From Legionella bononiensis (GTDB lineage Bacteria > Pseudomonadota > Gammaproteobacteria > Legionellales > Legionellaceae), in NCBI RefSeq assembly GCF_016786215.1, contig NZ_JADOBG010000010.1, forward strand, positions 186,001-250,000: DNA of 64,000 bases, in the 5' to 3' direction. The notes under the pieces are model-generated. The model saw only the letters and a program-made list of their open reading frames with translations. It ran no database searches and was not told the origin of the DNA. Positions 30,155 to 61,083 of the stretch are shown one piece after another. Every line of letters starts with the position of its first letter. Positions within the stretch are counted from its first letter, which is position 1. The position numbers were made by a program, and so were the translations under genes.

Positions 30155-32563
30155 CTAAATACCGTGATGCCCGGGTGCTTGTAGGTTTGATGGCGCAGCA
30201 AGATGTTCACGAGACTGCATAAGGTCTTTAGTTCTCGCTTCATCAATGGCTTCTATAGCCGCCAAATCAATGGCGGCCTGACCCGAGTGCGGCCCGGCGG
30301 CTTCCATGCCATCGCCGGCAGATTCGGCAAACCCAGCCCGTACTATTGCAAATGAAAAACCCAATCCGGACTCCTCGCCTGCGGCAGTAGGAGTAAACCA
30401 AGCATCATTGGAACCAGTTTCAAAGTTAAAAAACTTAAGCCGCCGCCGTAGATTAGCTGGACGATCCGCATCCAATAAGGTAGGGTCTTTGACTACCTTT
30501 TCAAATGAACGCTTGGGATGACAATATTCCTGGGCAATATGAGCAGGCACTTCTCTTTGCGGCAAACCAACCTTGATCCAGAGTGTGTCTAGTTCTTCCC
30601 AGTTCTCCGCAGTGTTCTTGGGACTTTGGTCGTACGCCTCAATATAATTTTTTAATGCTTTTTTTAAAGGCGTTAAATCAAAATGTGCACTGCGGTATTC
30701 TTTCCCCTTTTGGGTATAGGCTAGCCCTCTGGGGTGTTTGAATAGGTCTCCTATGAGTTCTTCTATCTTCTCCACCCGTTTCAGGATAATGAATTTGGTC
30801 TCATCATCCATATACCGTTCCAGCATCCGACACATATGGGTGTCTTTGGCCCAATAGGCATATTCATAGGCGGTGCAGTTGAAGGTTCTTCCTGAATAGT
30901 CGGTAAAGGGGACTTTCCTTGTGGTAAGAAGCTCCTGAGTAGTAGCGCTATCTTTTTGGAGCAGGCTTTCAGCCTCATTTTGTTGGCCGTAGGCAACTTG
31001 CTGTAAGAATTGTTTGGCATCGATTTTGGGTTTGAAATCGGGTCGTTCTTGTTTGAGTTGAGTCAATAGGTCTTTTTTAAGTTTTGGGTCTTGATAGGTG
31101 TTGATGCGTTCGTATAAGGTTTGTAATTCAGCATTATCCATGACCGCTGTATCGATGGTGATGTCTTCCTGAACCAGACAATTATGGGGGATGTTGACGT
31201 CTAAGTCAGATGCTTGAGCGCGAGCCGGCTCTAAAGGCTGGGTTAATTCGGGAGGTACATCCAATAAAGGAGAGCTGGCGAATTCTGGGAAACTCATGCA
31301 TATTGACCCTTGGTGGGTAAAAAAATGCCCTTTCTTTTCAGTGTTCAATACAAAAAATTCATCAAAATGGGGAGAATCTTTGATTTGCAGATATCGGCTC
31401 GTAAAGTCTTGCTTAATGGTTTGAATGTCCTCTGCAGTGAGTGGGGCTTTTAATTTGAATCGTTTAAAATGCTGATTTATCCACATCAAACACGTTTCTT
31501 CAATGGGAGTATTAGTCTTTTGTGCGTTAACCAGTGTCTGTGCAAGGCTTGTGCTTAAATTCGAGCTTTTATCCAGTATTTGCCCAAAATTTGTGTCGGA
31601 GTCGATTAGGTCATGAGTGAAGCAATAGACATTGGTAATTCCTAATAAAAATTGGGTGGCTATAGACCATTGTTCAGCTTGCGCTAAATAGCTAAACGGA
31701 GATTCCGTGGCGGTCTCGAATAACTGACCAGCGCAGTATCCGAATAAGGCTTCCATATACTCAACTGGGCTTGTTTGCGCGTCAAATTCCAAATTATTAT
31801 CCATTTCTTGTTTTTGTATAGGGTTGCCTTGCTCGTCTTTTGTAAAATCAACGGAGACGTTCACCAAGTCTTCCACTGTATCGTGCAAGAGTTCCCTTAA
31901 GCGCTCAAAATCAACCGGCACATGAGGGGGCTGTAATTGGTTCAATACCCGTTGTATCACCTGTGATTTCAAATCCCTTACTTGAAAATTCAATGGGGTG
32001 TAAGCCTCGATGAGTGCCTGTTGTAATTTGGATTGGGCTTCTTGTATGTCTCTTGATACGCTTTTATGGGCCACGCTAAATAGGGGATTAGCCACTTCCG
32101 AACGCAAAAAGCCATCTTCATCAGTGGGACGTAATACCATACTGTAGAGATTAGAGCGTGCCCGGTCTTGCATGAATTGTCCCAAGGGCTTTGGGTAGTT
32201 GGGAAAGCCTGAATTGAGGCAGTTCAGCTCTGGGTGTTTTTCCAGAAAAGCCAGAGCATTCAAATACGCATTAATTTGGATTAGTCTTTCTTGTTTTTGT
32301 TGAGTGAGCTCTGACTGTGCATCAAGTAAGCTGATGTCGTTTTCCAGGGCTTCTTTGTAGGCTAATAATTCCACTTTGAGGCTGATTTTTTTGTTTGAAT
32401 TACTGCCTTTATTAAAAAATTCTTGTAGTGCATAAACCGCTTTGCAGGTGTTGTCTAATCCAATATTCGTGCCGCTGACTATGGGCATAAACACGTGAAC
32501 TATGTTCTCGGGGCTTACATTGAGGTACCTGGCGGATAAAGGTTCTTTTAGCGGCAGCTTCAT
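30155..32563 (-). CDS. Large effector-like protein with ankyrin-like module
   Basis: This 802-residue protein has no signal peptide or membrane helix. Residues 1-430 are helical and unrecognised. Residues about 520-615 (VAYGQQNEAESLLQ, then TDYSGRTFNCTAYEYAYWAK, DTHMCRMLERYM) form an ankyrin-like module recurrent in large Legionella and Coxiella effector-type proteins. The last 100 residues contain a Gly/Ala-rich stretch ending in HHGI. It is probably a Dot/Icm substrate with unknown activity. No strong RBS is seen. The gene is visibly more GC-rich towards its 3' end than its neighbours. Confidence 0.65.
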   Translation of the reverse strand: MKLPLKEPLSARYLNVSPENIVHVFMPIVSGTNIGLDNTCKAVYALQEFFNKGSNSNKKISLKVELLAYKEALENDISLLDAQSELTQQKQERLIQINAYLNALAFLEKHPELNCLNSGFPNYPKPLGQFMQDRARSNLYSMVLRPTDEDGFLRSEVANPLFSVAHKSVSRDIQEAQSKLQQALIEAYTPLNFQVRDLKSQVIQRVLNQLQPPHVPVDFERLRELLHDTVEDLVNVSVDFTKDEQGNPIQKQEMDNNLEFDAQTSPVEYMEALFGYCAGQLFETATESPFSYLAQAEQWSIATQFLLGITNVYCFTHDLIDSDTNFGQILDKSSNLSTSLAQTLVNAQKTNTPIEETCLMWINQHFKRFKLKAPLTAEDIQTIKQDFTSRYLQIKDSPHFDEFFVLNTEKKGHFFTHQGSICMSFPEFASSPLLDVPPELTQPLEPARAQASDLDVNIPHNCLVQEDITIDTAVMDNAELQTLYERINTYQDPKLKKDLLTQLKQERPDFKPKIDAKQFLQQVAYGQQNEAESLLQKDSATTQELLTTRKVPFTDYSGRTFNCTAYEYAYWAKDTHMCRMLERYMDDETKFIILKRVEKIEELIGDLFKHPRGLAYTQKGKEYRSAHFDLTPLKKALKNYIEAYDQSPKNTAENWEELDTLWIKVGLPQREVPAHIAQEYCHPKRSFEKVVKDPTLLDADRPANLRRRLKFFNFETGSNDAWFTPTAAGEESGLGFSFAIVRAGFAESAGDGMEAAGPHSGQAAIDLAAIEAIDEARTKDLMQSREHLAAPSNLQAPGHHGI

Positions 32564-36411: not shown

Positions 36412-39400
36412 GTGCAAGATAAGTCATTCAGTTGTTATCTCATCGGAGATGATAATATTACCTTACAATGTGCATCCATTATCCTTGCCAAAAAGCACCA
36501 GTTACTTGGATTAATCTCGCAATCAAATCGAATAAAAAAATGGTGTAAAGCGAACGCCATACCCTGCATAAAAAATATTGAAGAGTTTGAACAACATTAT
36601 AAGAACCAAACTTGTGATTATTTATTTAGCATTGCAAATAACACAATTCTTCCACCCTCCATTCTCAACATACCACGCATTTATGCCATTAATTACCATA
36701 ACAGTCCATTACCTAGGTACGCTGGCTTATACGCCACATCCTGGGCAATTATTAATGATGAAAAAGAACATGCGATTAGCTGGCACATCATGCATGAACA
36801 CATCGATGCAGGGGATATTTTAAAACAACCACGGTTTGCAATAGATGAGGATGAAACAGCTCTTAGTTTAAATCTAAAATGCTACGAACAGGCAGTACAA
36901 GCCTTTCAAGAATTAGTAGATGAATTGGCTTTAAACACTGTCAACCGAATGAAACAAGATTTATCTCATCGCACGTACTTCGGATTAAAAAATAAACCAG
37001 TTTATTATGGATTTATTTCATGGAACACCGATTCAGAATACATTGATCGTTTGTGTCGCGCGCTGACTTTCGGTGAATATCAAAATGAATTAGTAACTCC
37101 TAAAATAATCGTTAACGAACAGGTTTTAGTCATCAAATCGTACCGAAAACTGGGAATCTCATCCAACAAAGAACCAGGAACACTGGTGCACTGCTCCACT
37201 ACTGACTTACAGATTGCCACTCAAACTACGGACATCATTCTTTATGAATTAATGAATCTTTCAGGAGAAGAGGTTCCGATAGGACAGCTCATTGATGAGG
37301 CGGGACTGTCTGTAGGTCAAAGACTTATTGACTTAGATGAACACTATATCCAATGTTTGGCGTTGCACCCTGCCCTGATTGAACCAAGTTTGGAACAATT
37401 TTGGATTAAAGAACATTTAAAATGCATTCATGGTGGAGTCTCTTTTTTATCAAACCTATCAACAAAAAATGAACCTCATTTAGTCATTAACCCAATATTC
37501 ACTCCAATACAAATAGGCTCTAATTTACTGAATAAGGCTCAACTTTTGTTTAAAAATCAACAAGTACCCTTAAAAAATATCCTTTTCAGTCTGCTTCTTT
37601 CATACATCTATCGACTGAATAACTATAAAAATTTTACTGTGGACTACAGCCCAACATCCCTGAGAGCAAAAGTTGGCATTTTAGACAATGTGCTGGAACA
37701 GCATGTTCCATTCACCACTCATTTTGATAGCGAGCTCAATATTCGTGATGTGGTGTTACTTATTGAACAGGAGCAGGAACGTCTTCGTCCATTTGAAACT
37801 TACTCTAAAGACATATTTATACGTTATCCTCAATTGAGCGGATTAACCCAGGAAATAGACATCAGTATTTCTTTTTTTGATCCATCAAATCGCCCTGATC
37901 AGTTAAATCATAAAAAATTAAATTTCTACATAGCAGAAGATGGTTCACTCCTATTCCTTCATAATAATACCAATTGGTCATCTTATGAGGAATCGTATAC
38001 CTACTTTACTCATATGGAACAACATCTCAATACCTTATTAGAAGACGCACTGACCCATCCTCAAAAAAAACTGCATGAACTCTCCCTTCTAACGAATAGT
38101 GAAGAACAAACTCAATTAGAAGTTTGGAATAATACTCAACAAAGATATGATGTTAATCGATTACTGCATGAGATAATTGAGACTCAAGCAGATACATCTC
38201 CTCATTCGATAGCTGCCAAATTTCTAAATGAAACGATAACCTATGAAGAGCTGAATCAAAAAGCCAATCAATTAGCTCATTGCTTAATTAACCAGGGAAT
38301 AAAACCAAATGACATAGTGTCCATTTACATCCATCGTGGTATGTACATGCTAATCAGTATCCTTGGTATATTGAAATCAGGAGCAGCCTATTTACCTCTA
38401 GATCCTCATTATCCTGATAAACGGATTAAATACATGCTCGACAACAGCCAATCTGCTGTTCTCTTGACTCATAAGAATTCTGTTTCAAGACCTATTCATG
38501 GATATGAAGGCTTCATCATTGATGTTACAGAGGCAATAGAATCTGAGCAGTTTCCTTCTTATAATCCACGCCCTTTGACTCAGTCATCAGATTTAGCTTA
38601 TGTGATTTACACCTCAGGCACTACAGGTGCGCCTAAAGGCGTTCCAATTTCGCATAGGTCAGCGTGTAATCATATGGAATGGATGCGAAGTGCCTATGAT
38701 TTTCACGAACAAGACGTATTTTTGCAAAAAACACCTTTTTCATTTGATGCATCTGTATGGGAATTTTTTATACCCCTTTGGATGGGTGCAACCCTGATCA
38801 TCGCCCCGGATGATGCTCATGCCAGTCCTAAAGAGTTAATCAACCTGGTCAGTACGAATCAAGTCAGCATTCTTCAATTGGTACCGTCCATGCTGCGCGA
38901 AATGACCTTAACCCCTGGCTTTTCTTCATGCACTTCATTAAGACATGTCTTTTGCGGTGGCGAAGTTTTATTACCTGAAACAATCCATGCTTTTTTTGAA
39001 CATCAACCCTCTCAATGTGCCTTACATAATTTATATGGTCCCACGGAAGCTACTATTGACTCGCTCACGTTAACTTGTACACCTCAAGATGCAATGGTAC
39101 CTGTAAGTCGTATCGGTTCACCAATTGCTAATACAAAAGCCTATATTTTAGACGATCATATGCAACTTGTTCCTACAGGCATAATTGGTGAGCTGTATCT
39201 CTCAGGCGATGGATTATCCAAGGGTTATCTCCATAATGAAGAACTAACACAACAAAAGTTTTTACCTAATCCTTTTGCAACTCGAGCAACCGATAGGCTT
39301 TATAAAACAGGGGATTTAGTGAAGTGGCAAAATAATGGAACTATTGAATATCATGAACGACAAGACAGCCAAGTTAAAATTCGTGGGTTTAGAGTAGAAA

Positions 39401-40683
39401 TAAGTGAAATTGAATCCTGTCTGGATAAAATTCCCTCTATCTATCAATGCCTGGTTAAACCTGAGGCTACCCCACTTGGTGAAATGTCCTTATCAGCCTA
39501 CTTAATACTCCTGGACGACGAACCTATCACCGCATCAGAAATTCGAAGCTTGTTAAAAAATGAACTTCCAGAGTTCATGATTCCAACCCGTTTTTATGTA
39601 GTCGATAAGCTACTCACTACACCAAGTGGTAAACTCGATAGAAAAAGTCCACTTACTCCCTTAAAACAACTGTATTTAAATCAAGAACATTGTGAGCCTC
39701 AAAATGAGATAGAACAAACGCTCCATGATATTTGGTGCTCCGTTTTAAACAGAGAGCGTTTAAGCATTCATGACGATTTTTTTGAATTGGGCGGTCACTC
39801 ATTAACCGCGATGAATATTATTTCACGCATTAAAGAACACTTTTCAATTAAATTAAGCTTGCGCCTGTTATTTGATTTACCCACGATTCATTCTCTTGCA
39901 ATGGAGATAGAACTATTACTGCACTCCAAGCAATCGGATCCTTTCATCTTATCTGATCGGATTATCATTCCACTAAAAAAATCGGGTACCCAAACACCAT
40001 TATTCTTTATTCATCCAATTGGAGGCAGCATTTTTTGGTACAAAGCGCTAGCAAAATACATCAATAAAGACGTGCCATTATATGGACTTCAAGATCCAGG
40101 CCTCGAACATCATGAGTTCTTTTTTAAGAATTTGGAAGAAATGGCATCCACCTACATTAAAGCCATTCAAAAAATACAACATCATGGACCATACTTGATA
40201 GGCGGTGCATCGTTCGGAAGCACCGTTGCTATTGAAATCGCAAGGCAATTTCAAGAGATGAATGAACCAATTAAAGCGATAATTTCACTGGATGGTTGGG
40301 CTGAATACCCTGCTCTGCAACGCAATGAAGAGCACTTCAAAGAATTTATGCGAGAACAGAATAAACGGATTTTGGAACACCATATGAAATTCGATATAAA
40401 AAATTCAGATACATTATTAGAATTGCAGTGGCATAGAGAAAAAATGTTGATGCACTATAAAGTACCGCCTATAAGATCAAAATTTATTTTATTTAAATCT
40501 GAAACACTCACCGAATTATTTAACTTTGAAGCCCCTTTGAATTGGTGGGATAACTATACCTCAGAGGAAATTATCTGTCATTTAGTGCCTGGTACTCATG
40601 AAAGTATGTTTTCTGAGCCAAATCTGTTCATTTTAGCGAATAAATTAAATGAAAGTTTAAACACATTAGATACTGTGCTATAG
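36412..40683 (+). CDS. Formyltransferase-containing single-module NRPS
   Basis: This 1423-residue enzyme starts at GTG. Residues 1-190 are a formyltransferase domain (INYHNSPLPRYAG near 95, HEHIDAGDIL near 127), followed by an Fmt-C-like piece to about 320. Residues 325-560 are only the C-terminal half of a condensation domain; no HHxxxDG is seen. An adenylation domain follows (about 575-1075; YTSGTTGAPKG near 729, NLYGPTEAT, YKTGDLVKW, KIRGFRVE near 990, TPSGKLDRK). Then come a carrier domain with Ser1130 in GGHSL and a thioesterase with Ser1267 in GGASFG and His1396. This predicts a short N-formylated aminoacyl product released by the TE. The next gene, a hybrid kinase, starts 62 bases downstream. 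Confidence 0.9.
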   Translation: MQDKSFSCYLIGDDNITLQCASIILAKKHQLLGLISQSNRIKKWCKANAIPCIKNIEEFEQHYKNQTCDYLFSIANNTILPPSILNIPRIYAINYHNSPLPRYAGLYATSWAIINDEKEHAISWHIMHEHIDAGDILKQPRFAIDEDETALSLNLKCYEQAVQAFQELVDELALNTVNRMKQDLSHRTYFGLKNKPVYYGFISWNTDSEYIDRLCRALTFGEYQNELVTPKIIVNEQVLVIKSYRKLGISSNKEPGTLVHCSTTDLQIATQTTDIILYELMNLSGEEVPIGQLIDEAGLSVGQRLIDLDEHYIQCLALHPALIEPSLEQFWIKEHLKCIHGGVSFLSNLSTKNEPHLVINPIFTPIQIGSNLLNKAQLLFKNQQVPLKNILFSLLLSYIYRLNNYKNFTVDYSPTSLRAKVGILDNVLEQHVPFTTHFDSELNIRDVVLLIEQEQERLRPFETYSKDIFIRYPQLSGLTQEIDISISFFDPSNRPDQLNHKKLNFYIAEDGSLLFLHNNTNWSSYEESYTYFTHMEQHLNTLLEDALTHPQKKLHELSLLTNSEEQTQLEVWNNTQQRYDVNRLLHEIIETQADTSPHSIAAKFLNETITYEELNQKANQLAHCLINQGIKPNDIVSIYIHRGMYMLISILGILKSGAAYLPLDPHYPDKRIKYMLDNSQSAVLLTHKNSVSRPIHGYEGFIIDVTEAIESEQFPSYNPRPLTQSSDLAYVIYTSGTTGAPKGVPISHRSACNHMEWMRSAYDFHEQDVFLQKTPFSFDASVWEFFIPLWMGATLIIAPDDAHASPKELINLVSTNQVSILQLVPSMLREMTLTPGFSSCTSLRHVFCGGEVLLPETIHAFFEHQPSQCALHNLYGPTEATIDSLTLTCTPQDAMVPVSRIGSPIANTKAYILDDHMQLVPTGIIGELYLSGDGLSKGYLHNEELTQQKFLPNPFATRATDRLYKTGDLVKWQNNGTIEYHERQDSQVKIRGFRVEISEIESCLDKIPSIYQCLVKPEATPLGEMSLSAYLILLDDEPITASEIRSLLKNELPEFMIPTRFYVVDKLLTTPSGKLDRKSPLTPLKQLYLNQEHCEPQNEIEQTLHDIWCSVLNRERLSIHDDFFELGGHSLTAMNIISRIKEHFSIKLSLRLLFDLPTIHSLAMEIELLLHSKQSDPFILSDRIIIPLKKSGTQTPLFFIHPIGGSIFWYKALAKYINKDVPLYGLQDPGLEHHEFFFKNLEEMASTYIKAIQKIQHHGPYLIGGASFGSTVAIEIARQFQEMNEPIKAIISLDGWAEYPALQRNEEHFKEFMREQNKRILEHHMKFDIKNSDTLLELQWHREKMLMHYKVPPIRSKFILFKSETLTELFNFEAPLNWWDNYTSEEIICHLVPGTHESMFSEPNLFILANKLNESLNTLDTVL

Positions 40684-40745: not shown

Positions 40746-43097
40746 ATGACAATTTTAGATGGACATGCGCTATCAATGCTTCTTCACATCATACAAGAAC
40801 CACTTCTTGTGTTATCCGAAGAATATCGTGTCCTAGACATTAATCAAAGTGCAGAACACAAATTAAATATTAAGAAAACAAACATCTTAGGATCTTCATT
40901 AACTCAGATTTGTTCAATTCATGAGTTACAAAAATGTAGTTCTACCCAATTAAACCAAATAACCTTACAAATTAAGAATTATTCCTGTCTATGTTATGCA
41001 GTACTAGTCAAAACACTCAATAAAAAATCAGAAAGGTCTACGAGTAAACAGCCTCATGAGAATAAATTAGTACCTGCAGACAACATCAACAAAGTTACTT
41101 TTGATTTTTTAGACACCATCATCGCTGAAATTCCAGTCAGCGTCTATTGGATGAATAAAGATTATATTTATCTAGGGTGCAGCAACAGCATGGCAAAACT
41201 GCTTAATTTGCCTTCACGTCATGATATTGTGGGTAAAACTTATGCCGATTTATATGACAAAAAATCTGCTGCTTTTTATAAAAAATCTGATAAATCAGTT
41301 ATAGAACACGGTATGTCATTAAGCTTGGAAGAACCTTTATATCAACCTGATGGAACAAAACTAATTTATATCTCAAAGAAAGTTCCATTATACGATGGTC
41401 ATGGCAATATCATGGGAATGCTGGGCATTTCCACTGACATAACCGAACGAAAAAAAATGGAGCACGATCTGAAATTAGCAAAAGAAGCTGCTGAAGCAGC
41501 TGATCGCGCTAAAACAGAATTCATCGCCAATATGGGGCATGACATCCGTACACCACTTTCTGGTGTGATTGGAATGGCAGAACTTTTAGAAAACTCATTA
41601 GAAAATGAAGAACAAAAATTTGAAGCTCATATCATTCATGATAGTGGAGAAGAGCTTCTTTCCATGCTGAATGACATATTGGATGATATTAAAGCGGGTA
41701 CCATCAACGACGGAGAGCCACACTTAGCACCATTTAATATTCATCAATGCGTTGATGATTTAATCAAATTGGAACGCCCTACTACCACTACAAAGCGTTT
41801 AGGACTTTTTGTGGAAATGGATGAAGCAGTTCCGCAAATAATTATTAGTGATCGTAAAAAAATTCAACGTATCCTTTTAAATTTATTAAGTAATGCCGTT
41901 AAATTTACTAAATCTGGCCATATAACCCTAACTATTAAGTGCGTGGAACGAAAAAAAGATAGAGTACAATTGCAGTTTAGTGTATCTGACACTGGAATTG
42001 GCATCCCCAAAGAACTACAAACCAAGGTATTTGAACGTTTTTATCGCTCCTCCCCTTCTTATAAAGGAATATACAAAGGATATGGATTAGGACTACACAT
42101 TGCCAAAACCTACGTTGAGCAGTTAGGTGGACACATTACTGTAATCAGTCAAGAAGGAGTTGGCAGTACAGTTCAATTTGATTTGCCATGTCACATATCT
42201 CAAAACGAGACAGTACAACCATCAAAACATAATAAAAAACCTGCTTCCTCTTTATCAATTGATAAAATCGAGAACGCCAACACTCTATCCCCTCTTTGTT
42301 TATTAATAGAAGACAATCCAACAGCACTTGTTGTATTAGAATCACTAATAACTAAGGCAGGATGTCAATTTAAAACAGCAACAAATGGAGAAGAAGCTTT
42401 AAACCTAATTAAGTTACATCATTTCGACCTGATTATTACGGACATTGGATTGCCAGGAATTTCAGGTACTGAATTTTGTGCATTAACTCGCACTTGGGAG
42501 CAAACGCACAACCAGAGTTCTCAACCCATTATTGGATTAACAGGTCATGCCCGTGATGCAGCGTATGATGAATGTATTGCCTCAGGAATGAACGATGTAT
42601 TTTCAAAGCCGGCAAATATAGAACTGATTCACTCGTTAATTAAAACTTATATAACTGACTCCTCATTACCCAAGACTGCTCGTTTAGATACAACGCCAAA
42701 CTCAATAGGTATCGATCTCCCTGCGACTAAAGAAGAATTATTTCAAATAGATCAATTTGTCCTTTTTGACAGTGAGGAAGCTTTAAAAAATTGTGGAACT
42801 ATCGATATTCTTAAAGAGATGTTGATCTTAATGACCTATGATCTTCCCGCTGATTTAATACAAATGAAAAAAGCATTTGAACTTAAAGATTATCCTTTGA
42901 TTGAAAAGACAGCCCATAAAATCAAAGGTGGGGCAGTATATGTAGGTACAACTCGGTTGAAATACGCATGCCAATATGTTGAGAGATATTGGAAATCAGG
43001 ACAACGTGAATTATTTGATTTACTCTTCCAGCAAGCAGTCAATACTATTGATGAAACCATCAAATATATTGAGGGTTGGCTGAGGACTGGTAAGTAG
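40746..43097 (+). CDS. Hybrid histidine kinase (PAS-PAS-HisKA-HATPase-REC-Hpt)
   Basis: This 783-residue protein has a first PAS-like region (1-100; LLVLSEEYRVLDINQSAE) and a second PAS (about 120-240; VYWMNKDYIYLGCSNSMA). HisKA carries His265 in GHDIRTPLSGVIGM. HATPase_c has an LLSNAVKFT N box and DTGIGIPK and GYGLGLHIAK G boxes. The receiver has Asp566 in ITDIGLPG, and the Hpt has His724 in AHKIKGGAVYVG. There are no membrane helices. It is a close paralogue of the 23559 kinase with an extra N-terminal sensor. The position directly after the NRPS suggests co-expression, and perhaps sensing of the NRPS product. Confidence 0.92.
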   Translation: MTILDGHALSMLLHIIQEPLLVLSEEYRVLDINQSAEHKLNIKKTNILGSSLTQICSIHELQKCSSTQLNQITLQIKNYSCLCYAVLVKTLNKKSERSTSKQPHENKLVPADNINKVTFDFLDTIIAEIPVSVYWMNKDYIYLGCSNSMAKLLNLPSRHDIVGKTYADLYDKKSAAFYKKSDKSVIEHGMSLSLEEPLYQPDGTKLIYISKKVPLYDGHGNIMGMLGISTDITERKKMEHDLKLAKEAAEAADRAKTEFIANMGHDIRTPLSGVIGMAELLENSLENEEQKFEAHIIHDSGEELLSMLNDILDDIKAGTINDGEPHLAPFNIHQCVDDLIKLERPTTTTKRLGLFVEMDEAVPQIIISDRKKIQRILLNLLSNAVKFTKSGHITLTIKCVERKKDRVQLQFSVSDTGIGIPKELQTKVFERFYRSSPSYKGIYKGYGLGLHIAKTYVEQLGGHITVISQEGVGSTVQFDLPCHISQNETVQPSKHNKKPASSLSIDKIENANTLSPLCLLIEDNPTALVVLESLITKAGCQFKTATNGEEALNLIKLHHFDLIITDIGLPGISGTEFCALTRTWEQTHNQSSQPIIGLTGHARDAAYDECIASGMNDVFSKPANIELIHSLIKTYITDSSLPKTARLDTTPNSIGIDLPATKEELFQIDQFVLFDSEEALKNCGTIDILKEMLILMTYDLPADLIQMKKAFELKDYPLIEKTAHKIKGGAVYVGTTRLKYACQYVERYWKSGQRELFDLLFQQAVNTIDETIKYIEGWLRTGK

Positions 43098-45374: not shown

Positions 45375-47036
45375 ATGGTAACTGAATCCAATGAAACCTC
45401 GCGTGATTTATTTGATCAAGTGATAGCGGCAATCAAAGAAGAACATATAGCGCAACTAGCGACTTTACTTAATCAAGCGCGCACAGAACGATATAGTGAT
45501 TTTTCAATCATGCAGGATGATGATGGTAACACTATTTTTCACCATCTGATCATGAGTGGGAATTTGGATTTGATGGAAGCATCGCTTTCATATGAAACCG
45601 GATTTAATGATTCGTATGATATTAAGAATAAAATGGGCAAAACGCCCTACGCTTGTATTGCTGACCTACCCGATGAAAAAGCTGAATTTAAAAGCATAGC
45701 CATCATGAACCTAGGTCCTTCTTGGAGACAAAGCCATATACTTGATCAGTTTCGTGATTACCTGAAAATACAGCACGACGATGATCCTGAACATTTCCAG
45801 AAAGATGATGTCTTGGCAATTCAAGCAGCACTAGCCCAAGGGAATTGTAATGGCTTTGCCGCTATTTGGCTCCAATGCTATCTGGATGGCAATGAAGATA
45901 AATACGTTGAAATATTCTCAGAAATTATTGAATGGGACAAATCAAAAGAAAGCTTATCGCCACCACTAAAGAGGAAGTTTGAGTTTGCGATTGGCTTAGC
46001 AAGAAGTTATCAGATGGGAGATGAAATAGCATGGGAGCATACTCAATTTGAGCGAGAATACCAAAATTGGAACATGCAGTCTCCTAGCCACAAGGCACAG
46101 AAGCTTTTTCTTTCAGCTGATAATTTTTTCACGAAACAGAAGCAATGGGATAAGATATGGAATAACAAGAAGTATAAAAGTGAGCAAAGCTATGCTAGTT
46201 ATTTTGATGTGCCATCATTAGCTTTATTTTTAAAACAAATTTCAGATCAACCACAGCTCAATAGAAAAGGCATTAGCATCATCGGAGCCGCACATGCTGT
46301 AGCTGCTTGTATAAACAATCAGAAATTTATCTATTTTGATTCCAATGCAGAGATAAATATTATTGACAACAAAACTGTTCCTTCGAAAACGTTTGATCTA
46401 TCGACTGATAATAATTGTTTGGATGCTGCGCGTGAAGTTTTTTCCTCTTTAAATTTCAAAGGTGAAGCGCTTGATAATCTGGAATTGCATTTAACATTAT
46501 CCGTGTATGGTAAATCTGATGCGCACATTTCTTCATATCCTGATATTGAAGAAATAAAAGCCCAACTATTTTATAATGATGTTAAAGCTATGAACTTTTC
46601 TGATATTGATCCTTTTAAATTTATAAAGTTTTATGATTTATTAACTACTGTTCTTACAAAAGATGAGATGGGTGACATGGTCGACAAGGCAAGGTTTTCC
46701 CGTCATATGATTAATGAAATCAGGGATGACGGGAACAATTACACCCCCCTTTCAAGAGCAATTGAAGAATCAAATACAATCGTTATTGAGTTATTATTAA
46801 AAAGTGGCGCCAATCCTAAACAAATATTAGATGAGGATACTACACCCCTTAGTATTGCGGAAAATCTTGCTAAGAGAAGCAAGCAGAACCAAGAAATCGT
46901 GACCTTACTAAAATCATATGTGATGAATACAACAAAGAATATATCAGTTTCTAATAACAAATCATCATTCTATATTCACAAACAGACTAATGATGATACC
47001 CAAGTACCTATCGATCTAAAGAATAATACAAAGTAA
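45375..47036 (+). CDS. Ankyrin repeat protein with papain-like cysteine-protease-like domain
   Basis: In this 553-residue protein, residues 8-110 and 445-515 hold ankyrin-type repeats (DGNTIFHHLIMSGNLDLME; NYTPLSRAIEESNTIVIELL, then LLKSGANPKQI). Between them lies a domain with a candidate triad: Cys158 in QGNCNGFAAIW, His307 in IIGAAHAVAA and Asp322 in FIYFDSN. The same combination is known in Legionella AnkH (ankyrins plus a cysteine-protease-like domain). There is no signal peptide. The C-terminal 40 residues are polar and Lys/Asn-rich, suiting a type IV secretion signal. It is a probable Dot/Icm effector with unknown substrate. Confidence 0.75.
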   Translation: MVTESNETSRDLFDQVIAAIKEEHIAQLATLLNQARTERYSDFSIMQDDDGNTIFHHLIMSGNLDLMEASLSYETGFNDSYDIKNKMGKTPYACIADLPDEKAEFKSIAIMNLGPSWRQSHILDQFRDYLKIQHDDDPEHFQKDDVLAIQAALAQGNCNGFAAIWLQCYLDGNEDKYVEIFSEIIEWDKSKESLSPPLKRKFEFAIGLARSYQMGDEIAWEHTQFEREYQNWNMQSPSHKAQKLFLSADNFFTKQKQWDKIWNNKKYKSEQSYASYFDVPSLALFLKQISDQPQLNRKGISIIGAAHAVAACINNQKFIYFDSNAEINIIDNKTVPSKTFDLSTDNNCLDAAREVFSSLNFKGEALDNLELHLTLSVYGKSDAHISSYPDIEEIKAQLFYNDVKAMNFSDIDPFKFIKFYDLLTTVLTKDEMGDMVDKARFSRHMINEIRDDGNNYTPLSRAIEESNTIVIELLLKSGANPKQILDEDTTPLSIAENLAKRSKQNQEIVTLLKSYVMNTTKNISVSNNKSSFYIHKQTNDDTQVPIDLKNNTK

Positions 47037-53080: not shown

Positions 53081-53792
53081 ACAGCGCTCCCCGTTTGCTC
53101 TAATGATTCTTATGGCTCAAATGTATGGATTGCAATACATACGCAGGAAACCATCCAGCAGCAATTTCTCCGAAATGTACACAAGATAATAGAAGAAGCA
53201 GAAATGGATTTATGATCAAATTAAGTCAGGAGCAATGAGCAAGAATGTTGGGTCGCGACACAACCCACTAAAAATATTTAAAATCAATAGGTTATATGAT
53301 GTAGGCAGCGGGAATCGAACCCGCGAAATAATTATTTAATTTATTGAAAATATTGGATTTTATTTAAATTAATACGTTATTGGGCACAGTTTGGGTATAT
53401 TTTTTATGAAAATCCTAAATATTTTAGTTTCTATTATTGAATACTATGAATACTATAATTAGACCTACCATATAACTTATAGAATGACCTGGTTGTTTTT
53501 TACGTCACTGTAAGGGTCCTGTGGAAGAACCCCTATTAGTGAACTTCATTTGCAGGCTAGAAATCAACATCGCGGTGATGATGATGTTGATGATAATCAA
53601 CCCCGTGTAAACTAATCCCACCGCGTAAGAAGTGTCCAAAAGACCGTCTTACGTTCCCTCCCGTTCCTCCATTACATAAAGTGTGGCATATGGTTCCCTT
53701 TGCATGAATAAAAATGGTTCATATTTTCTTAATATTTAACATGTAAAATACTCCGACATTACAGATTTGTACAAAAAATATTTGGACGAATT
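53081..53792. other. Island boundary region
   Basis: Holds an imperfect TTGGGT hairpin near 53249, the tRNA 3'-end-like fragment (53301-53325), a TTGGGCACAGTTTGGGTATA-type sequence at about 53384-53403, and AT-rich leader DNA for the TALE-like gene. No integrase is present nearby. Confidence 0.45.
53301..53325 (-). other. tRNA 3'-end-like fragment (possible att site)
   Basis: On the minus strand, a canonical T-arm is present (GCGGG-TTCGATT-CCCGC, 5-bp stem and 7-base loop). It is followed by TGCCTAC as the acceptor 3' strand and ATCA in place of a CCA-type end. No D-arm, anticodon arm or 5' acceptor strand follows; the adjacent DNA is AT-rich. This is the usual footprint of a tRNA-targeting integrative element. 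I cannot name the tRNA. Confidence 0.5.
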
Positions 53793-56453
53793 ATGCCATA
53801 TGATGATTTTTTTTCTGATTTTCCACCCGAAAATACCCAGGATTTATTTGACACGCTAATACCCCCCCTGGATTGGCCTGATGCAGGTGAACCACTGGTT
53901 GGGGCAGACAATACCGCATTATCGGATGATCCAGAGCAAACCGCGCCTGTCTGTTTATCAAATACAACAGCCATGGATTCGCTGCCAGACAATCTGGAAG
54001 ATGATACCGAGGCGCCTGATCCTCTTTTTTTTCTGGATTTGGAACAAAGCCTGTTATTGCCTTTGCCTGACAGAACTCCAACGTCTCCAGAGTATGAGGT
54101 CAATAATAGCACCCAATTGCCAGACGTATTTGTTGCTCCAAGGCCCAGACAAAAGCGGGAACCAGGACAAAATGTGTCCAGACCAATTTCAACCAAACCA
54201 GAAAAGCAGTTTATTTGGACTGAATGTGTATTTACTCAGCGTGGGAAGCGGGCTCGTGGAAGCGAGGAAGCGTCGGATTCCAGTTCTTTTGCAAGCAGTT
54301 CCAGCGCACCTAAAAATCAGCGCACAGCTTCAGGAAAAAACACTATTTCATATGTTCGAAACGATGCATGTACCTCCACATATTCTGCGGACACTGCTCA
54401 TCAATACTCTTCTTTTCCCCCAAGCCTCCCATCATTGGGAGTTAATAATGTCTTTTCAAATGTTGTCTTACAACCAGACGCGCCGGTTATTTTGGACGGT
54501 CAGCAGAAACTGACTCATGCCCCGATTGATAGGGTTGTTATCTCTGACAGGTCTCCCGAAGTTTTCATTTTACCCCCGGTCACGACGCTCCTGGGTGCAA
54601 GTCCCCCCACATTAAATGGGCCAATTTTGAGCAGATATGTGCGATCGCTGGATGATGTGGATAGGTGCACGGCACAACCCGACACGTTGAGCCAACGATG
54701 TGAAGAAAGTGTTGCTTCAGAAGAGGTATGGGTTGCGTCCCGTACTTTCAATATGTTTAGCATGTCAGAGAAAAAAAGAATGGCTCTGATTCAGAACCTG
54801 GCAAAGTATAACATAAGCGAAAAAACCTACCTTAAGGCATGTGCCAATTTGAGTGCGCTGGGTTACAGCACGGCAGAAATCAGGAAATTGGTTCCTGGCC
54901 TCGGCTGGCTAACAACCGTTAATAATTTGGTTAACAAGCATGAACTTATTATGGGACTTATCAAGAGGGACGGATTAAGTCATAAAGATCTAATCAAAGT
55001 CTGCACCTGCGAAGACGGCAACCAAAATCTTGATGGATTGGTACATTATTATGCGGAACTCAAAGTACTTGGCTATCCGCCTCAGAGTATCATGGAGATG
55101 GTATCGCGTACTAATGGCGCGGAACATTTGGACATGGTACGCAAAAACCATAATACGCTTATTGATTACCGCTTTAAAATTGCAGAAATTGTGGGAATGG
55201 CATCTCGTGATGATGGACTAGAAATCATACCAGCCCTAATAGACAGCTATCAGATTCTTGAGGAAGGTGGGTTGAATAATCGAGATATTATCCAAATAGC
55301 ATGTGTTCAGGACGGCGCGCGCAAATTGAGAATTGTTAAAGAGTTTTTCAGTAGAGTGCCCAGTGTCATGATAGCAACCGGGATAATAAAAGAAATTGTT
55401 ACCACAACACCCATTAAAAATATTTTGCAGAATCTCATAAGGAAACAGGAACAGATGGAAAGTAAGGAGGCTCAAACCATTCTGCGCTCCGTTCAACCTT
55501 TAGAGAGGCTGGTTAATGCCAAAGATGACACCCGGGCAGCATGTGCTGTTTCGAGCCCTGTTAGCGTGTCTGTCAGTATGTCTGATTTTGTTGTTGAGTC
55601 TGCTGGTTCTAGCTCATCCAGACCACCCCGCAGGCCTGTTGATAAGCCCGTCGAAAGAGAGGCAACCTGGACAGATCAAACATACAGGAAGTGTGGTTTT
55701 CATCAAGATGCCTATAAATTATATCGCGCTGTTTTGATATCGCTGGGCTATGAAGAAGGGAGTATTAACTCAATATTTCTGGGCGCTGGTAAGCATGGAG
55801 CTGTTGACGCGTTGATTGCAATGCATGATACCCTGATAAATCTTGTCAAGAAGAATGGTTTAGACCATAAGGATCTGGCCCTGGTCTCTGCTTGTCCAGA
55901 TGGCGCGCAAAATCTTATGGCATTGATGAAACATTACACAACGCTTAGAAGTCAGGGCTACTCAAACAGGGACATTATCGGCGTGCTCTCTCATCGTAAC
56001 GGTGCAGTCAATTTGGAACGCGTACGTGCAAAACATGATGAGCTGGTAAGCCTCGGGTTTAAAACAGCAGACATTATCTCCATGGCTTCTCATCATTGTG
56101 GTGCCCGTAGACTGGAAATTATTGCAGAGTTTTTCAAAAAAGCGCCCGATATTAAAATACCAAACAGGCGAATTGCAGAATTGGTCGCTAATAATCCAAC
56201 AGAGAAGCTTTTTCAAGCTCTTGAAACAGAACATGCCCATTCGCCGAATGAGATTGTTATTCTATCTTCTTCCCAGGTATCTGACACAGGCTCTGCGATG
56301 CCACGGCAAAGCTCTGGAAGCTCTGTATCCAGTTCTCTTCTTGCGGGGCAAAGCAGCTTTTTCCGTTCGCAGCCTTCTGTTTCTGGATCATCGACGGTGG
56401 AGCCTGGGAATAGGAATGAGCCCGATATGAATTTATTTGATAGAATTGGCTAA
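53793..56453 (+). CDS. TALE-like repeat protein with acidic N-terminus and two repeat blocks
   Basis: An 886-residue protein. Two blocks of 33-residue repeats match TALE/BAT spacing (D/E5, I6, S11, hypervariable 12-13, G15, L19, V22, G33). Block 1 has repeats at 395, 428, 461 and 494 (12-13: CE, RT, RD, VQ). Block 2 has them at 690, 723 and 756 (CP, HR, HH). Each block is flanked by degenerate repeats (358-394 and about 527; 653-689 and about 789). The clearest repeat reads DIIGVLSHRNGAVNLERV. The N-terminus is acidic and aromatic (DDFFSDF, DLFDTLIPPLDW, LFFLDLEQSLLLPL), like activation domains. Basic NLS-like clusters are PRPRQKRE (117-124) and RGKRARG (150-156). A Ser/Pro linker (580-625) joins the blocks. 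No signal peptide. More GC-rich than its surroundings, suggesting transfer. Inferred role: nucleus-targeted DNA-binding effector. An mTERF-like helical array is the main alternative. Confidence 0.75.
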   Translation: MPYDDFFSDFPPENTQDLFDTLIPPLDWPDAGEPLVGADNTALSDDPEQTAPVCLSNTTAMDSLPDNLEDDTEAPDPLFFLDLEQSLLLPLPDRTPTSPEYEVNNSTQLPDVFVAPRPRQKREPGQNVSRPISTKPEKQFIWTECVFTQRGKRARGSEEASDSSSFASSSSAPKNQRTASGKNTISYVRNDACTSTYSADTAHQYSSFPPSLPSLGVNNVFSNVVLQPDAPVILDGQQKLTHAPIDRVVISDRSPEVFILPPVTTLLGASPPTLNGPILSRYVRSLDDVDRCTAQPDTLSQRCEESVASEEVWVASRTFNMFSMSEKKRMALIQNLAKYNISEKTYLKACANLSALGYSTAEIRKLVPGLGWLTTVNNLVNKHELIMGLIKRDGLSHKDLIKVCTCEDGNQNLDGLVHYYAELKVLGYPPQSIMEMVSRTNGAEHLDMVRKNHNTLIDYRFKIAEIVGMASRDDGLEIIPALIDSYQILEEGGLNNRDIIQIACVQDGARKLRIVKEFFSRVPSVMIATGIIKEIVTTTPIKNILQNLIRKQEQMESKEAQTILRSVQPLERLVNAKDDTRAACAVSSPVSVSVSMSDFVVESAGSSSSRPPRRPVDKPVEREATWTDQTYRKCGFHQDAYKLYRAVLISLGYEEGSINSIFLGAGKHGAVDALIAMHDTLINLVKKNGLDHKDLALVSACPDGAQNLMALMKHYTTLRSQGYSNRDIIGVLSHRNGAVNLERVRAKHDELVSLGFKTADIISMASHHCGARRLEIIAEFFKKAPDIKIPNRRIAELVANNPTEKLFQALETEHAHSPNEIVILSSSQVSDTGSAMPRQSSGSSVSSSLLAGQSSFFRSQPSVSGSSTVEPGNRNEPDMNLFDRIG

Positions 56454-56508
56454 CAATTGTGAGATTTGTAGCCTGTGACCTGGACTCCATTGTCAGAACC
56501 ATGTAATT

Positions 56509-56907
56509 TACATTACCTGAAAATTTAGCCAGCTTACAGGAGGAACTGTACGTAAGTTTTTTGCAGGGTTATGGTTTTTATCCACATCAGTTCATTCGAA
56601 CTGTGTTATCTATAATCAGGAAATACCCTTGGAGAGGCCTCTTGATGATGCGCTATACCGCTTGTTAAGTGAAACAGAACATTGCCTATTAACACCAACG
56701 GCCTTGAAATCGCTTATAGTCAATCAGGCTTTAACAGAACACACCTTTGGGTTTTCCGTATTTTCAGCCCAAACGGGTAATGGCATCCAATTTGAGTTTA
56801 ATATTAAACCGATATGCCTCAAATATCGTCTTCTTTGCCCTTGGTTTTGTATAGAGAATAAAATGAATTGCGACTTAGATTGGCGAAAATATATTGTAAT
56901 GCACTGA
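56509..56907 (+). pseudogene. Frameshifted gene remnant
   Basis: One frame (about 56512-56640) reads FTLPENLASLQEELYVSF and QGYGFYPHQFIRTVLSII. Near 56630-56645 the coding sense moves to another frame, which continues LDDALYRLLSETEHCLLTPT and TFGFSVFSAQTGNGIQFEF to a stop at 56907. Neither half has a good start or RBS. Together they look like one small helical protein broken by a single frameshift. I recognise no family. It follows the TALE-like gene by 55 bases. Confidence 0.4.
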
Positions 56908-57159
56908 TAATTAATATATTTAATACATCATTGCCAGTTTGGGCTGAATATGCAGAAAAACCCTAGAAAGTGATTCGCTCCAGGGGTTCTTTGCAGGAAG
57001 TTACGAAATTTCCAATAATACCATGTCATACAACGTCAATATTGTTTCTGGACGCCTAACCCACAACGACCATTTTTGAGGGTTCTTCCAAAGCACCCGA
57101 ACGGAAAATCGTTAAGATCTGGATATCACGATTACTAGACTTAGTGGAAAAATAAGGCG
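56908..57159. other. Intergenic region before IS30 element
   Basis: No gene is seen. AACCCTAGA ... AGGGGTT near 56961-56988, followed by CTTT, may be a terminator. Confidence 0.35.
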
Positions 57160-57197: not shown

Positions 57198-57959
57198 TTA
57201 TTTCCTACATTCATACACAAGACTAGAATCACTTTCATCAGGTTTGCTAAGTCTATCAAAAGCTTTAATCATTTTAACTTCTCTGAAACCTACTTCTTTA
57301 AGCATATCAGTCAAAACTAAAGGATCATCATAAACTCGAACATTAAATATCTCAATTTCAGTTTGTATGATCTGTCCTTTATCTACCAGCTCATATCTAT
57401 CTATAGAGTAACAAACATTGTCTTCGTATTTTGTAAGGCGATTAACCAGAATAAAATTACCATCCGGCTTGTGACATACGATACCCCTCCAAACTCCAAG
57501 TTGATCAGGCACTATTTTGGATGTTTCTACTTCAAATAATAAAGTCCCATCATTATTTAAATGATCATAAAAAACCTTCAATGATTTTTTTACTGAGTCA
57601 AAATTAATAATGTGTCCAAATGAGCCGCTGGGAATAAAAATTAGGTTATATTTTTGTGTTCTATTTAAATCCTCAACAAATCCCTGCCATACTTCTGGCT
57701 TAAGATGTTGTAATTTTGCCTTGGCATGTAGGGCGTCAAGCATATGAGCACTGGCATCAAATCCTATAACTTCGAAATTTTCTTTAAGAAGCGGAAGTAA
57801 AAACCGACCTGAACCACACATAGGCTCCATAACAACACCACCAGCATTATCCACATATTCACGATAAAATGCATAAGCATCTTCTGGTGGTTCAGGTCTT
57901 ATTAAATCATAAAACTGTGTGCATAAATTAAGGTAGCTATTCAGCTTATGTTGATTCAT
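57198..57959 (-). CDS. Class I SAM-dependent methyltransferase (IS passenger)
   Basis: The protein is 253 residues from the ATG at 57959. SAM motif I is VMEPMCGSGRFLLPLL (about residues 42-57), with the acidic motif II residue in VIGFDAS and later motifs in NLIFIPSGSFGH and LLFEVETS. It looks full-length for small ubiquinone- or toxin-type methyltransferases. Its start overlaps the transposase stop (TGATG), with GGAAA as a possible RBS inside the transposase gene, so translation is coupled. Both genes lie within the element's inverted repeats. The substrate is not evident; resistance or modification of a small molecule is only a guess. Confidence 0.82.
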   Translation of the reverse strand: MNQHKLNSYLNLCTQFYDLIRPEPPEDAYAFYREYVDNAGGVVMEPMCGSGRFLLPLLKENFEVIGFDASAHMLDALHAKAKLQHLKPEVWQGFVEDLNRTQKYNLIFIPSGSFGHIINFDSVKKSLKVFYDHLNNDGTLLFEVETSKIVPDQLGVWRGIVCHKPDGNFILVNRLTKYEDNVCYSIDRYELVDKGQIIQTEIEIFNVRVYDDPLVLTDMLKEVGFREVKMIKAFDRLSKPDESDSSLVYECRK

Positions 57960-58939
57960 CAATTCATTTCCAAATTTCCTTTGATAATCTCATTAGGTGT
58001 AAAGTAATTTAGAGATTTTCTAGGCCTTGAGTTTAATTTATTCATTATAACAAGTAGCGTATTATCAGTCACTGAAACCAAGCTTGAACTCTTTGCCACA
58101 TACTGACGAACTAGACCATTGGTATTTTCATTCAAACCACGCTCCCACGACGAATATGGGTGAGCAAAATAAAACTCTGCTTCTAATTGTTTAGATATTT
58201 GTTGGTGATAGGCGAATTCACTGCCATTATCGGCGGTAATTGTTAGGACTGGTTTGCGATGGCCTTTTAGAACATCTATAGTTGCTTGTGTAACATTTGC
58301 TGCAGTTTTTTTGTTAACTTTTTTTAAGAGTGTAAATTTACTTTTTCGCTCTACAATAGAAACGATAGCTTGCTTATGATTTTTACCGATAATAGTATCT
58401 ATTTCCCAATCTCCTATACGTTGCTTTTTATCTACAATAGAAGGTCGTTCATTAATAAATCGTCGATTTCTAATCGCACCTTGACGTTTGGGACCTCCAT
58501 ATCGTTTTCTATATTTTTTATGCTGATGCCTTAAGTGTTTATATAAAGCACCACCCTGCTTTTTATTCTTCAAAATAAACTGGTAAATCCATTCGTGGCT
58601 TAAGCTGAATATAGAACAACGTTTAGCATACCCACTTATTTGCTCGGGACTCCATTCATCTTGTATTTTTTCGATAACAAACACTTTTATTGGCTCGGTA
58701 AATTTAATGAACTTAGGCTTTGCCTTTTTGCGTTGCTCAGCGAAAGACTGTGCATAATCAGCTTTATAATCCCAATAACCTAACCGGGTTCGAACAAATG
58801 TAATATTTCGATTTAATTCTCGAGAAATAGTAGACTTATGCACTCCTACTTCATCAGCTATCTTTTGTTGCGAGAAACCAGCTTTCCACAAGGCTTGAAT
58901 CTTACACCGTTTTAGATAATCTAAGCGTTTATATCCCAT
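57959..58939 (-). CDS. IS30-family transposase
   Basis: This 326-residue protein has an N-terminal helix-turn-helix (KAGFSQQKIADEVGVHKSTI) followed by an rve-type DDE core. The core residues are Asp in WEIDTIIG, Asp in ITADNGSEFAYH, and Glu in RGLNENTNGLVRQY. The C-terminal SRPRKSLNYFTPNEII is the standard IS30 ending. Length and motifs appear intact, so it may be active. The start is at 58939, about 70 bases inside the right inverted repeat. Confidence 0.93.
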   Translation of the reverse strand: MGYKRLDYLKRCKIQALWKAGFSQQKIADEVGVHKSTISRELNRNITFVRTRLGYWDYKADYAQSFAEQRKKAKPKFIKFTEPIKVFVIEKIQDEWSPEQISGYAKRCSIFSLSHEWIYQFILKNKKQGGALYKHLRHQHKKYRKRYGGPKRQGAIRNRRFINERPSIVDKKQRIGDWEIDTIIGKNHKQAIVSIVERKSKFTLLKKVNKKTAANVTQATIDVLKGHRKPVLTITADNGSEFAYHQQISKQLEAEFYFAHPYSSWERGLNENTNGLVRQYVAKSSSLVSVTDNTLLVIMNKLNSRPRKSLNYFTPNEIIKGNLEMN

Positions 58940-59143: not shown

Positions 59144-59749
59144 TTAAGTAGATTTAGCTCTTTGAATACTTTCAACTAGTTTATATACTGTTGTGCTACC
59201 GAGGGTTTTGGGCCAATCTGTACATGGTGGATTATCACGATTTTTTCCACGACGAATGGCATCATCTATACTTCCAATATTTTTTATTCGATTAATATCA
59301 ACACCTTTATCATAATCTGGTAAATAATTATTTAATCGAACCATGCAATCACTTGCAGATTTTATATTATTTCCATCTTCAAAATGTAAAATCAACCAAT
59401 ATTCAAAATTTGGGTTACTTAGTGCAAAACCAAAATTCACTGATTTTTTTGACCAATTAAATAACTCTGATAATTGCTGATCTGTCCAACTATCTTTATC
59501 TACTACTAACCAAGCTTCATCTGTTATTTTACAATCTTCTTCTTTAAGACATTTTTCCATTTGTTTCAATACATATTGTGGGGAACTATGTTTAGGCTTT
59601 TGAAAAATTAATTTAATTATTGAATTCTTATCTTGAAATGAAGAAAAATATTGTAATTCTGTTTTAGAACCCTCTGCCACTATAATATATAATTTTCTAT
59701 ATGGGCGAATTCCTCCATATCTCGTAAAAATTCTTCGTTTTTGGGACAT
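59144..59749 (-). CDS. RloB-like protein of an AbiL-type defence pair
   Basis: This 201-residue protein fits the RloB family. It opens with a basic stretch, then LYIIVAEGSKTELQYFSSF (the Toprim-like EGxTE segment), then AWLVVDKDSW with paired acids, and FGFALSNPNFEYWLILHF. These acidic residues match a Toprim-like metal-dependent nuclease core. It overlaps the ATPase stop by one base (TAATG), so the two are coupled. In abortive-infection AbiL systems an AAA ATPase and an RloB protein act together; here that is inferred from family and order. Confidence 0.85.
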   Translation of the reverse strand: MSQKRRIFTRYGGIRPYRKLYIIVAEGSKTELQYFSSFQDKNSIIKLIFQKPKHSSPQYVLKQMEKCLKEEDCKITDEAWLVVDKDSWTDQQLSELFNWSKKSVNFGFALSNPNFEYWLILHFEDGNNIKSASDCMVRLNNYLPDYDKGVDINRIKNIGSIDDAIRRGKNRDNPPCTDWPKTLGSTTVYKLVESIQRAKST

Positions 59750-61083
59750 TAATCATGTCCTCCTTGATATTCATTTTTACAAATTAATATTTCCTCACGG
59801 ATACGTGGCACCCCACCAAATCGACCCTGGAGATAGCTTTTTCGAATATCTTTGTCAAAACGAATATCTTTATATTCACTAAATGAGATTAAATCAGATG
59901 AACCGGAAGAATCTCTTTCAGCTATCCACATTTCATCACGTCTTAATAATTTTTGATCCATCAATAATACATCATGTGTCGTAAATAATAATTGATGTCT
60001 AGTGGTAGCAGAACAATTTCCCAAGTAAAGCTCTAGTAATTTTTTGGTAAGTAAGGTATGTAAACTTCTATCTACCTCATCAATAATAAAAACCTTTTTA
60101 GATAAAGGAGAAGATAACTCAAGAAAAGCAGGTAATAAATCAATTACTCGTTGAGATCCATCTGATTCTTGGCGAATATCAAATTTAACTTCTGTACCAT
60201 CAGCTTTAGAATGATAGGTCACTAACTTTTTAACCAGAAGTTCTCCATTTTTTCTAGTGACAACTAATTGCTCTTTATTGGGGGCATTTACACGAACAGT
60301 CATACCCTCTTTGATTTTTTCTTGGAGCTTTAATTTTAATACTTCCGGCAAAGAAATGTTATCAAAATGAATATCCTCTCCTCCAAGATGCGAAATTCCA
60401 GTATCTAGTTTTGGTAAAAGTTCATTCATTGTCATATAGAGGGGATGACTTTCATCTAAAAATTGCTCAAACAGGCCGAATCGTGTATCTGGGGCAACTA
60501 GTTCAAGGGTATCTTTGAACCAATTATAAATTGGTTTAAAGTTATCAACCTTTTGTGATACAGAGTTAGTTAAGAAAAGCTGATTTTCTCTAGTACCTTG
60601 GAATGCAAATTTTAAAAACTGATCATCTTCTAACGATTCATCAAAATTTGGCTTGTCATCTAGTCTATTATATAGAATGGTTTCAGAGTTGCCTTTAATC
60701 AGAACTAATTTTTCCTCTAAGACTAATTTACTTGTAACAGCAAAACTGTATTCATAAATTAAATCACCTATAAGCAATTCAAAATTAAAACGCGCGGGTA
60801 GCTCTTTACCTTTAACATTTAAAAGAAAAGTTTCAACGGGTATTAAACCATCAGGTTGTGTCCCATTAACAACTAATGACTTAACAAAACTAATCGCCCT
60901 AAAAAAATTCGTTTTACCAGATGCATTTCCGCCATAAATAGCGGCAATAGGAAGTACTTTTATATTATATTTTTCAATCTTTGGAACTCGCTCATTATGT
61001 TGGCGTTCTTTACCGGCAACCATAGTAAAGGTAACGTTATTACCGAAAGACATCCAATTCTCTAATGAAAATCTAATTAACAT
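59749..61083 (-). CDS. RloA/AbiL-type AAA ATPase
   Basis: This 444-residue SMC-like ATPase has Walker A in [14 protein letters not shown] (about residues 49-62), a coiled or regulatory middle, Walker B with acidic catalytic residue in [13 protein letters not shown], and a switch histidine in [11 protein letters not shown]. The N-terminus ([12 protein letters not shown]) is typical of AAA_15/AAA_21 ATPases of anti-phage systems. It is the first gene of a two-gene operon with RloB. By analogy with AbiL and PARIS-like systems it would sense infection and license the Toprim-like partner. Confidence 0.87.

Follow-up and report, generated by a model that had tools for sequence, protein, structure and literature searches.

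A Legionella bononiensis protein with two separately capped blocks of TALE-like repeats, and the recurrence of two arrays among its relatives

Transcription activator-like effectors (TALEs) are the best-known DNA readers that use one repeat per base, and descriptions of natural ones give them a single array. Xanthomonas TAL effectors (Hax3, PthXo1, AvrBs3) have helix-loop-helix repeats with G14-G15, which form one long superhelical array with acidic and basic regions outside it, and are delivered by type III secretion. The Bat/Btl proteins of Mycetohabitans are described with one array of 6, 20 and 26 core repeats for Bat3, Bat1 and Bat2, respectively (excerpts of PMC4066763 and PMC11261895). 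A TAL effector is also described from Candidatus Synchoanobacter obligatus, a protist-associated gammaproteobacterium with Dot/Icm-type secretion (excerpt of PMC9418006), and a 2025 mSphere paper reports 19 TAL-like proteins in 14 Legionella genomes, its authors knowing of none reported earlier (excerpt of PMC12482156). The subject of this study is a gene of Legionella bononiensis at 53793-56453 on the + strand of a 64,000-nucleotide stretch (contig NZ_JADOBG010000010.1, positions 186,001 to 250,000, assembly GCF_016786215.1; hereafter the window), which encodes an 886-residue protein with two separate, individually capped blocks of TALE-like repeats.

Like the published Legionella TAL-likes, the protein comes from a Legionella host carrying Dot/Icm, and its TALE-like repeats are 33 residues long and vary at the loop residues. 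Those proteins were identified by the InterPro TAL repeat entry and are described with 3-13 repeats, the TAL-like section of PMC12482156 mentioning no second array, whereas the protein studied here has no Pfam TAL match, two capped blocks and no Gly14. The 10-repeat L. quateirensis example of that section is probably our L027 (10 repeats). Like the Xanthomonas effectors, the protein combines a predicted helix-loop-helix superhelix with acidic and basic regions outside the repeats, but it has two short arrays, an X14-G15 loop, an N-terminal acidic region and an expected Dot/Icm route. The nearest solved structure by sequence, and the first Foldseek match, is the Mycetohabitans Bat/Btl protein BurrH, although the two arrays here have only four and three core repeats. 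The Ca. Synchoanobacter obligatus TAL effector was recovered by our searches, and its pieces (L043, L054) have canonical repeats in a single array, unlike this protein.

The open reading frame (ORF) starts with ATG and is intact, encoding, from the N- to the C-terminus, an acidic region, a basic stretch, a spacer, block 1, a linker, block 2 and a Ser-rich tail; all its parts given below are on the + strand. The core repeats stand in perfect 33-residue register, starting at residues 395, 428, 461 and 494 in block 1 and at 690, 723 and 756 in block 2. A 33-position profile was built from 486 distinct family repeats, none of them from this protein, from P0002 (its homologue at 92%) or from L003 (its relative in L. 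quateirensis). It scores all but one of the seven repeats at 19.4-28.0 bits. In block 1 these are repeat 1 (residues 395-427, nucleotides 54975-55073, CE at positions 12-13, 25.2 bits), repeat 2 (428-460, 55074-55172, RT, 19.4 bits) and repeat 3 (461-493, 55173-55271, RD, 23.4 bits), and in block 2 repeat 1 (690-722, 55860-55958, CP, 28.0 bits), repeat 2 (723-755, 55959-56057, HR, 24.5 bits) and repeat 3 (756-788, 56058-56156, HH, 26.6 bits). Across 2000 shuffles the top score was 6.3 bits in block 1 and -0.3 bits in block 2, and among the window's 172 other stop-free stretches none scored above -7.6 bits. The remaining repeat, the degenerate fourth of block 1 (494-526, 55272-55370, VQ), scores only -2.8 bits, its support being its register, its helix-loop-helix in the structure model and the way it aligns with the final repeat of block 2. 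An independent profile (A4), made from eight canonical three-repeat segments and run against the whole genome in six frames, reached E 1e-5 or better only twice, once in each block of this gene (1.3e-14 and 4.5e-12). The two separate blocks of 33-residue repeats proposed in a first-pass annotation of the window are thus borne out by profile scores, and by the predicted fold described below, and the same unusual residues at positions 12-13 are read here; its choice of 723-755 as the best repeat gives way to 690-722, which the profile ranks first.

In the structure model each block opens with two helix pairs that form its N-terminal cap, continues with the core repeats and closes with a final helix pair. 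A cap model built without this protein finds a separate N-terminal cap in each block, at residues 334-392 (independent E-value 1.3e-13) within the block 1 cap (329-394, 54777-54974) and at 629-683 (1.2e-5) within that of block 2 (627-689, 55671-55859), both also seen in the structure model. The C-terminal caps are predicted helix pairs at 527-555 (55371-55457; predicted local distance difference test score about 62-72) and 789-815 (56157-56237), so that cryptic caps flank both cores; the degenerate caps and short core proposed earlier hold, with seven core repeats in total (4 + 3). The two blocks are 32% identical (E 2e-34), and their C-terminal caps are also aligned by BLAST. The nearest solved structure by sequence is BurrH (E 2e-45), which is likewise the top Foldseek match for both blocks, and each block is predicted to form a TALE superhelix, TALE chains scoring far above mTERF. 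The outcome that would have counted against the earlier reading, namely an mTERF, ARM or other helical superhelix resembling a TALE by chance, did not occur. What speaks for it are Pfam matches below threshold, to RuvA_C at E 0.0015 and to mTERF at E 0.083, the latter recurring in 8 of 29 family members. With no mTERF match above the Pfam cut-off and no fold match equal to that of TALEs, an mTERF or RuvA_C identity was rejected after the fold comparison, and such a chance likeness is scarcely credible. The original observation is confirmed: by descent, as judged from sequence, and by predicted fold, the protein belongs to the TALE-like repeat family. As a side observation, two family members (P0005, P0015) are labelled ‘Holliday junction resolvasome RuvABC DNA-binding subunit’ by a source, and weak RuvA_C matches within the repeats, present in 10 of 29 members, probably mislead annotation.

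The two-block layout had been considered unusual; the separate blocks are real, but the layout is not unique and recurs in relatives. When two arrays are defined as each having at least 2 repeats, with at least 60 residues between them, they are found in 11 of 133 family entries (some of them near-duplicates), this protein and P0002 included. In the 10 tested for flank duplication (P0002 omitted), duplication exceeds that in all 500 shuffles for the pre-array stretch in 7 proteins, for the post-array stretch in 6 and for at least one of the two in 9, P0048 passing narrowly (48 vs a maximum of 47). In this protein the pre-array stretch passes (69 vs 36) and the post-array stretch fails (30 vs 36). 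The flanking stretches of P0007, P0010 and P0081 are duplicated almost unchanged, and P0012 has its second cap at its end, on a contig of 1368 bases. L069 was rejected as a two-array member, as neither flank is duplicated beyond the shuffles, and P0024 was not counted, its second array having one repeat. In a tree of 33 units, the two units of P0007 are sisters (99/94), as are those of P0010 (100/99), whereas in this protein block 1 branches as the sister of block 2 together with L003 (88/72, the branch not starred). These placements indicate three or more origins of two arrays on this tree, unless gene conversion has turned older pairs into sisters, and the two arrays of this lineage probably predate its split from the one-block gene of L. 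quateirensis. A literature search of PMC papers returned no recognisable description of two arrays in one TALE-like protein. What is new here is the recurrence of two arrays together with the altered loop described below, TALE-likes in Legionella having already been published.

The family to which these proteins belong was aligned from 87 proteins among 7995 scored candidates, and some members already carry names such as ‘TAL effector repeat-containing protein [Legionella worsleiensis]’. A first scan of genome contigs with the protein found no relative; when the core region was searched against 143 Legionellaceae genomes, 25 had a match at E 0.01 or better, and with A4, 28 of 143 did at E 1e-5. 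A class-wide sample of 369 genomes gave 6 with a match, of which G000 and G125 are Legionellaceae. Matching hosts include L. quateirensis (G066), L. yabuuchiae (G100), Legionella sp. W10-070 (G137) and Ca. Synchoanobacter obligatus (G478). Named relatives were obtained by a DNA pattern search (18 stretches); those from Alteromonas, Alteromonadaceae, Zoogloeaceae, Robiginitomaculum and Cytophagales yielded no new protein with at least 2 repeats, and these matches are therefore probably due to chance. The nearest relative found is L003 of L. quateirensis, of the same genus, to which block 2 is 54% identical and the N-terminus 34%. Among 10 ORFs around L003, none but the TALE-like gene matches the window, and there is thus no synteny with the L. 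quateirensis locus. A close-clade search (A5) returned this protein and P0002 and nothing else. P0002 has 879 codons in an unbroken frame and 76 differences from this protein, with identity highest in block 1 (94.9%), followed by block 2 (89.9%) and the acidic region (89.8%). Positions 12, 13 and 15 are unchanged between the two, which is not informative because the repeats hold just 17 changes (with repeat 4 placed one residue late).

Several relatives depart from this plan in other ways. P0019 has a precomputed OTU domain (PF02338) N-terminal to its TALE-like array, and P0068 has between its two arrays, at residues about 475-500, a putative OTU-like stretch, assigned by a motif; a deubiquitinase-type domain joined to TALE-like repeats would be unusual. 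Longer repeat periods of about 40 to 51 residues, with the helix-loop core retained, occur in L024 (895-2367), P0026 and P0068. Of 84 tails, 26 carry a short [GSQNA]FF motif after the repeats, often by a basic stretch, where 300 shuffled sets average 7.5 such tails and never exceed 14, related tails not being independent; examples are L011 (1465-2502), L024 (895-2367) and the Ser-rich tail of this protein (816-886, 56238-56450; 25 S+P of 71 residues), which carries SSFF.

Upstream of the gene lies a PmrA-like tandem box, GTTCATATT-TT-CTTAATATT (53717-53736, +), which starts 76 bp before the ATG. The PmrA consensus is cTTAATatT twice, two bases apart. The box has two mismatches to it, and by this consensus the gene has an effector-type promoter. 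At up to 3 mismatches the box is the sole match in the window, where 0.33 are expected and at least one match occurs in 27 of 100 shuffles. Allowing up to 4 mismatches within 200 bp, a box was found in 5 of 39 relatives with starts as first listed and, with starts set by hand, in 7 of 13 genes (12 chosen relatives plus this gene), all at 65-76 bp: 76 in this gene and in L003, 73 in L027, 72 in L004, 71 in L005 and L028, and 65 in L006. With the hand-set starts, no box was found within the same limits in L014, L018, L019, L020, L023 or L025. Random stretches of the same loci have a box in 32 of 2000 cases, giving a Fisher p of 9e-10 for 7/13 (hand-set starts) and 7e-5 for 6/40 (starts as listed), values to be read knowing that the box was noticed post hoc and the 13 genes were hand-picked. 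PmrA of L. pneumophila is reported to activate about 40 effector genes (excerpts of PMC6989116 and PMC2701608), and Klebsiella PmrA binds tandem CTTAAT-type half-sites as well (excerpt of PMC3973317). The host carries DotI/IcmL, the one Dot/Icm component sought, about 45 kb off on the same contig (E 1.9e-63), and a SidC-family effector gene lies in the window at 30155-32563 (SidC_N, E 2.7e-209). Together, the box, DotI/IcmL and the SidC-family neighbour support a putative Dot/Icm effector.

The intact ORF, the two blocks, the homology of their repeats to those of BAT and TALE proteins and the promoter box common to sister genes are established, and the TALE superhelix of each block is predicted. 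The explanation proposed, at slightly under an even chance, is a putative Dot/Icm effector whose two capped TALE-like modules bind DNA bivalently in the host nucleus, as a two-handed TALE. PmrA would regulate the gene and Dot/Icm would inject the protein into the host cell, where a basic stretch with KRAR (residues 109-182, 54117-54338; 14 K+R, 7 D+E), partly retained in L003 and P0046, may act as a nuclear localisation signal directing entry. The N-terminal region (residues 1-108, 53793-54116), acidic and rich in aromatic residues and Leu (25 D+E, 1 K+R, 24 W/F/Y/L) and activation-domain-like in composition, might then affect transcription; the composition of both regions is compatible with nuclear action on transcription. 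The protein has 29 acidic tiles, against at most 8 in other window ORFs. The modules, joined by a Ser/Pro-containing linker (556-626, 55458-55670; 19 S+P among the 81 residues of 546-626), would contact DNA together, at two nearby or distant sites, through a distinct recognition loop in which [D/N/C]14-G15 replaces G14-G15.

Several observations weigh against this explanation, and many of them favour its main rival, a repurposed TALE fold whose blocks bind a chromatin or transcription protein, RNA, or DNA non-specifically, without reading bases, for which there is a sizeable minority chance. Gly14 is absent from all seven repeats (D, N, D, D, D, N, C), four of which thus have a negative residue there, whereas it is found in 585 of 633 repeats of the remaining family, a set whose seed pattern required GG. 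L003 also lacks Gly14 in its three repeats (E, N, H), and the loss therefore marks a clade. Lys/Arg17 is lost in five repeats and kept in 2/7, against 393/633 in the family (p 0.08), and the net charge of the blocks is just +2 and +3. Nevertheless, Gly15 and the 33-residue register are retained in all seven repeats, as are both N-terminal caps, and D and N are the usual substitutes for Gly in such turns. Family repeats have TALE-like 12-13 pairs (HD 95, HG 88, HN 50, HI 34, NN 24; n=486), and of the seven pairs of this protein HH (18), RD (5), HR (5) and RT (1) are among those listed for these family repeats. The cores of four and three repeats also fall below a length of about 6.5 repeats, under which TALEs are reported as non-functional for activation (excerpt of PMC6792138, citing Boch 2009), and no clear shift was reported for Bat3, which has six core repeats (excerpt of PMC4066763). 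As a single block is below the known working length, binding would need both modules jointly. Given the Gly14 loss, the few Lys/Arg17 and the short arrays, the protein is filed as TALE-like and not as a code-reading TALE. Further on the adverse side, the Pfam matches of this protein up to E 10 do not include TAL_effector, and its two-block form was found in only two sequences. The acidic region is a matter of composition, and the acidic-tile test is a weak one, since 33 of the 81 family proteins also have such tiles, as do 6 of the 19 other ORFs in the window. L003, furthermore, carries one block and lacks block 1, which together with the degenerate repeats would fit a former TALE-like effector being lost. 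Block 2 is no better conserved towards P0002 than the acidic region, but decay is improbable, as both frames are unbroken, block 1 is the most conserved region, block 2 exceeds the N-terminus in identity to L003 and the promoter box is present.

In its surroundings, the gene stands out with a G+C of 0.41-0.46 (54000-56999), the flanking DNA between 48000 and 64000 having 0.31-0.39. An ankyrin-repeat protein is encoded at 45375-47036. A transposase-like gene with an integrase core (57959-58939) is followed downstream by an RloB and AAA ATPase pair (59144-61083), and a large protein with formyltransferase, AMP-binding, carrier and thioesterase domains (36412-40683) precedes a hybrid histidine kinase (40746-43097).

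A broader proposal, less likely than not, is that two-handed TALEs recur across Legionellaceae and relatives, their independently capped modules clamping two DNA sites simultaneously, and that in the clade of this protein a new loop has its own reading rules, the gene being switched on by PmrA together with the Dot/Icm effector programme. Two capped arrays per chain in several separate relatives would broaden the known architecture towards two-site binding and bridging, and a two-array family would show how short modules might cooperate. By their common PmrA-like box, these genes rank with the effectors of bacteria that infect protists, making direct control of protist genes by a DNA-reading effector a testable idea.
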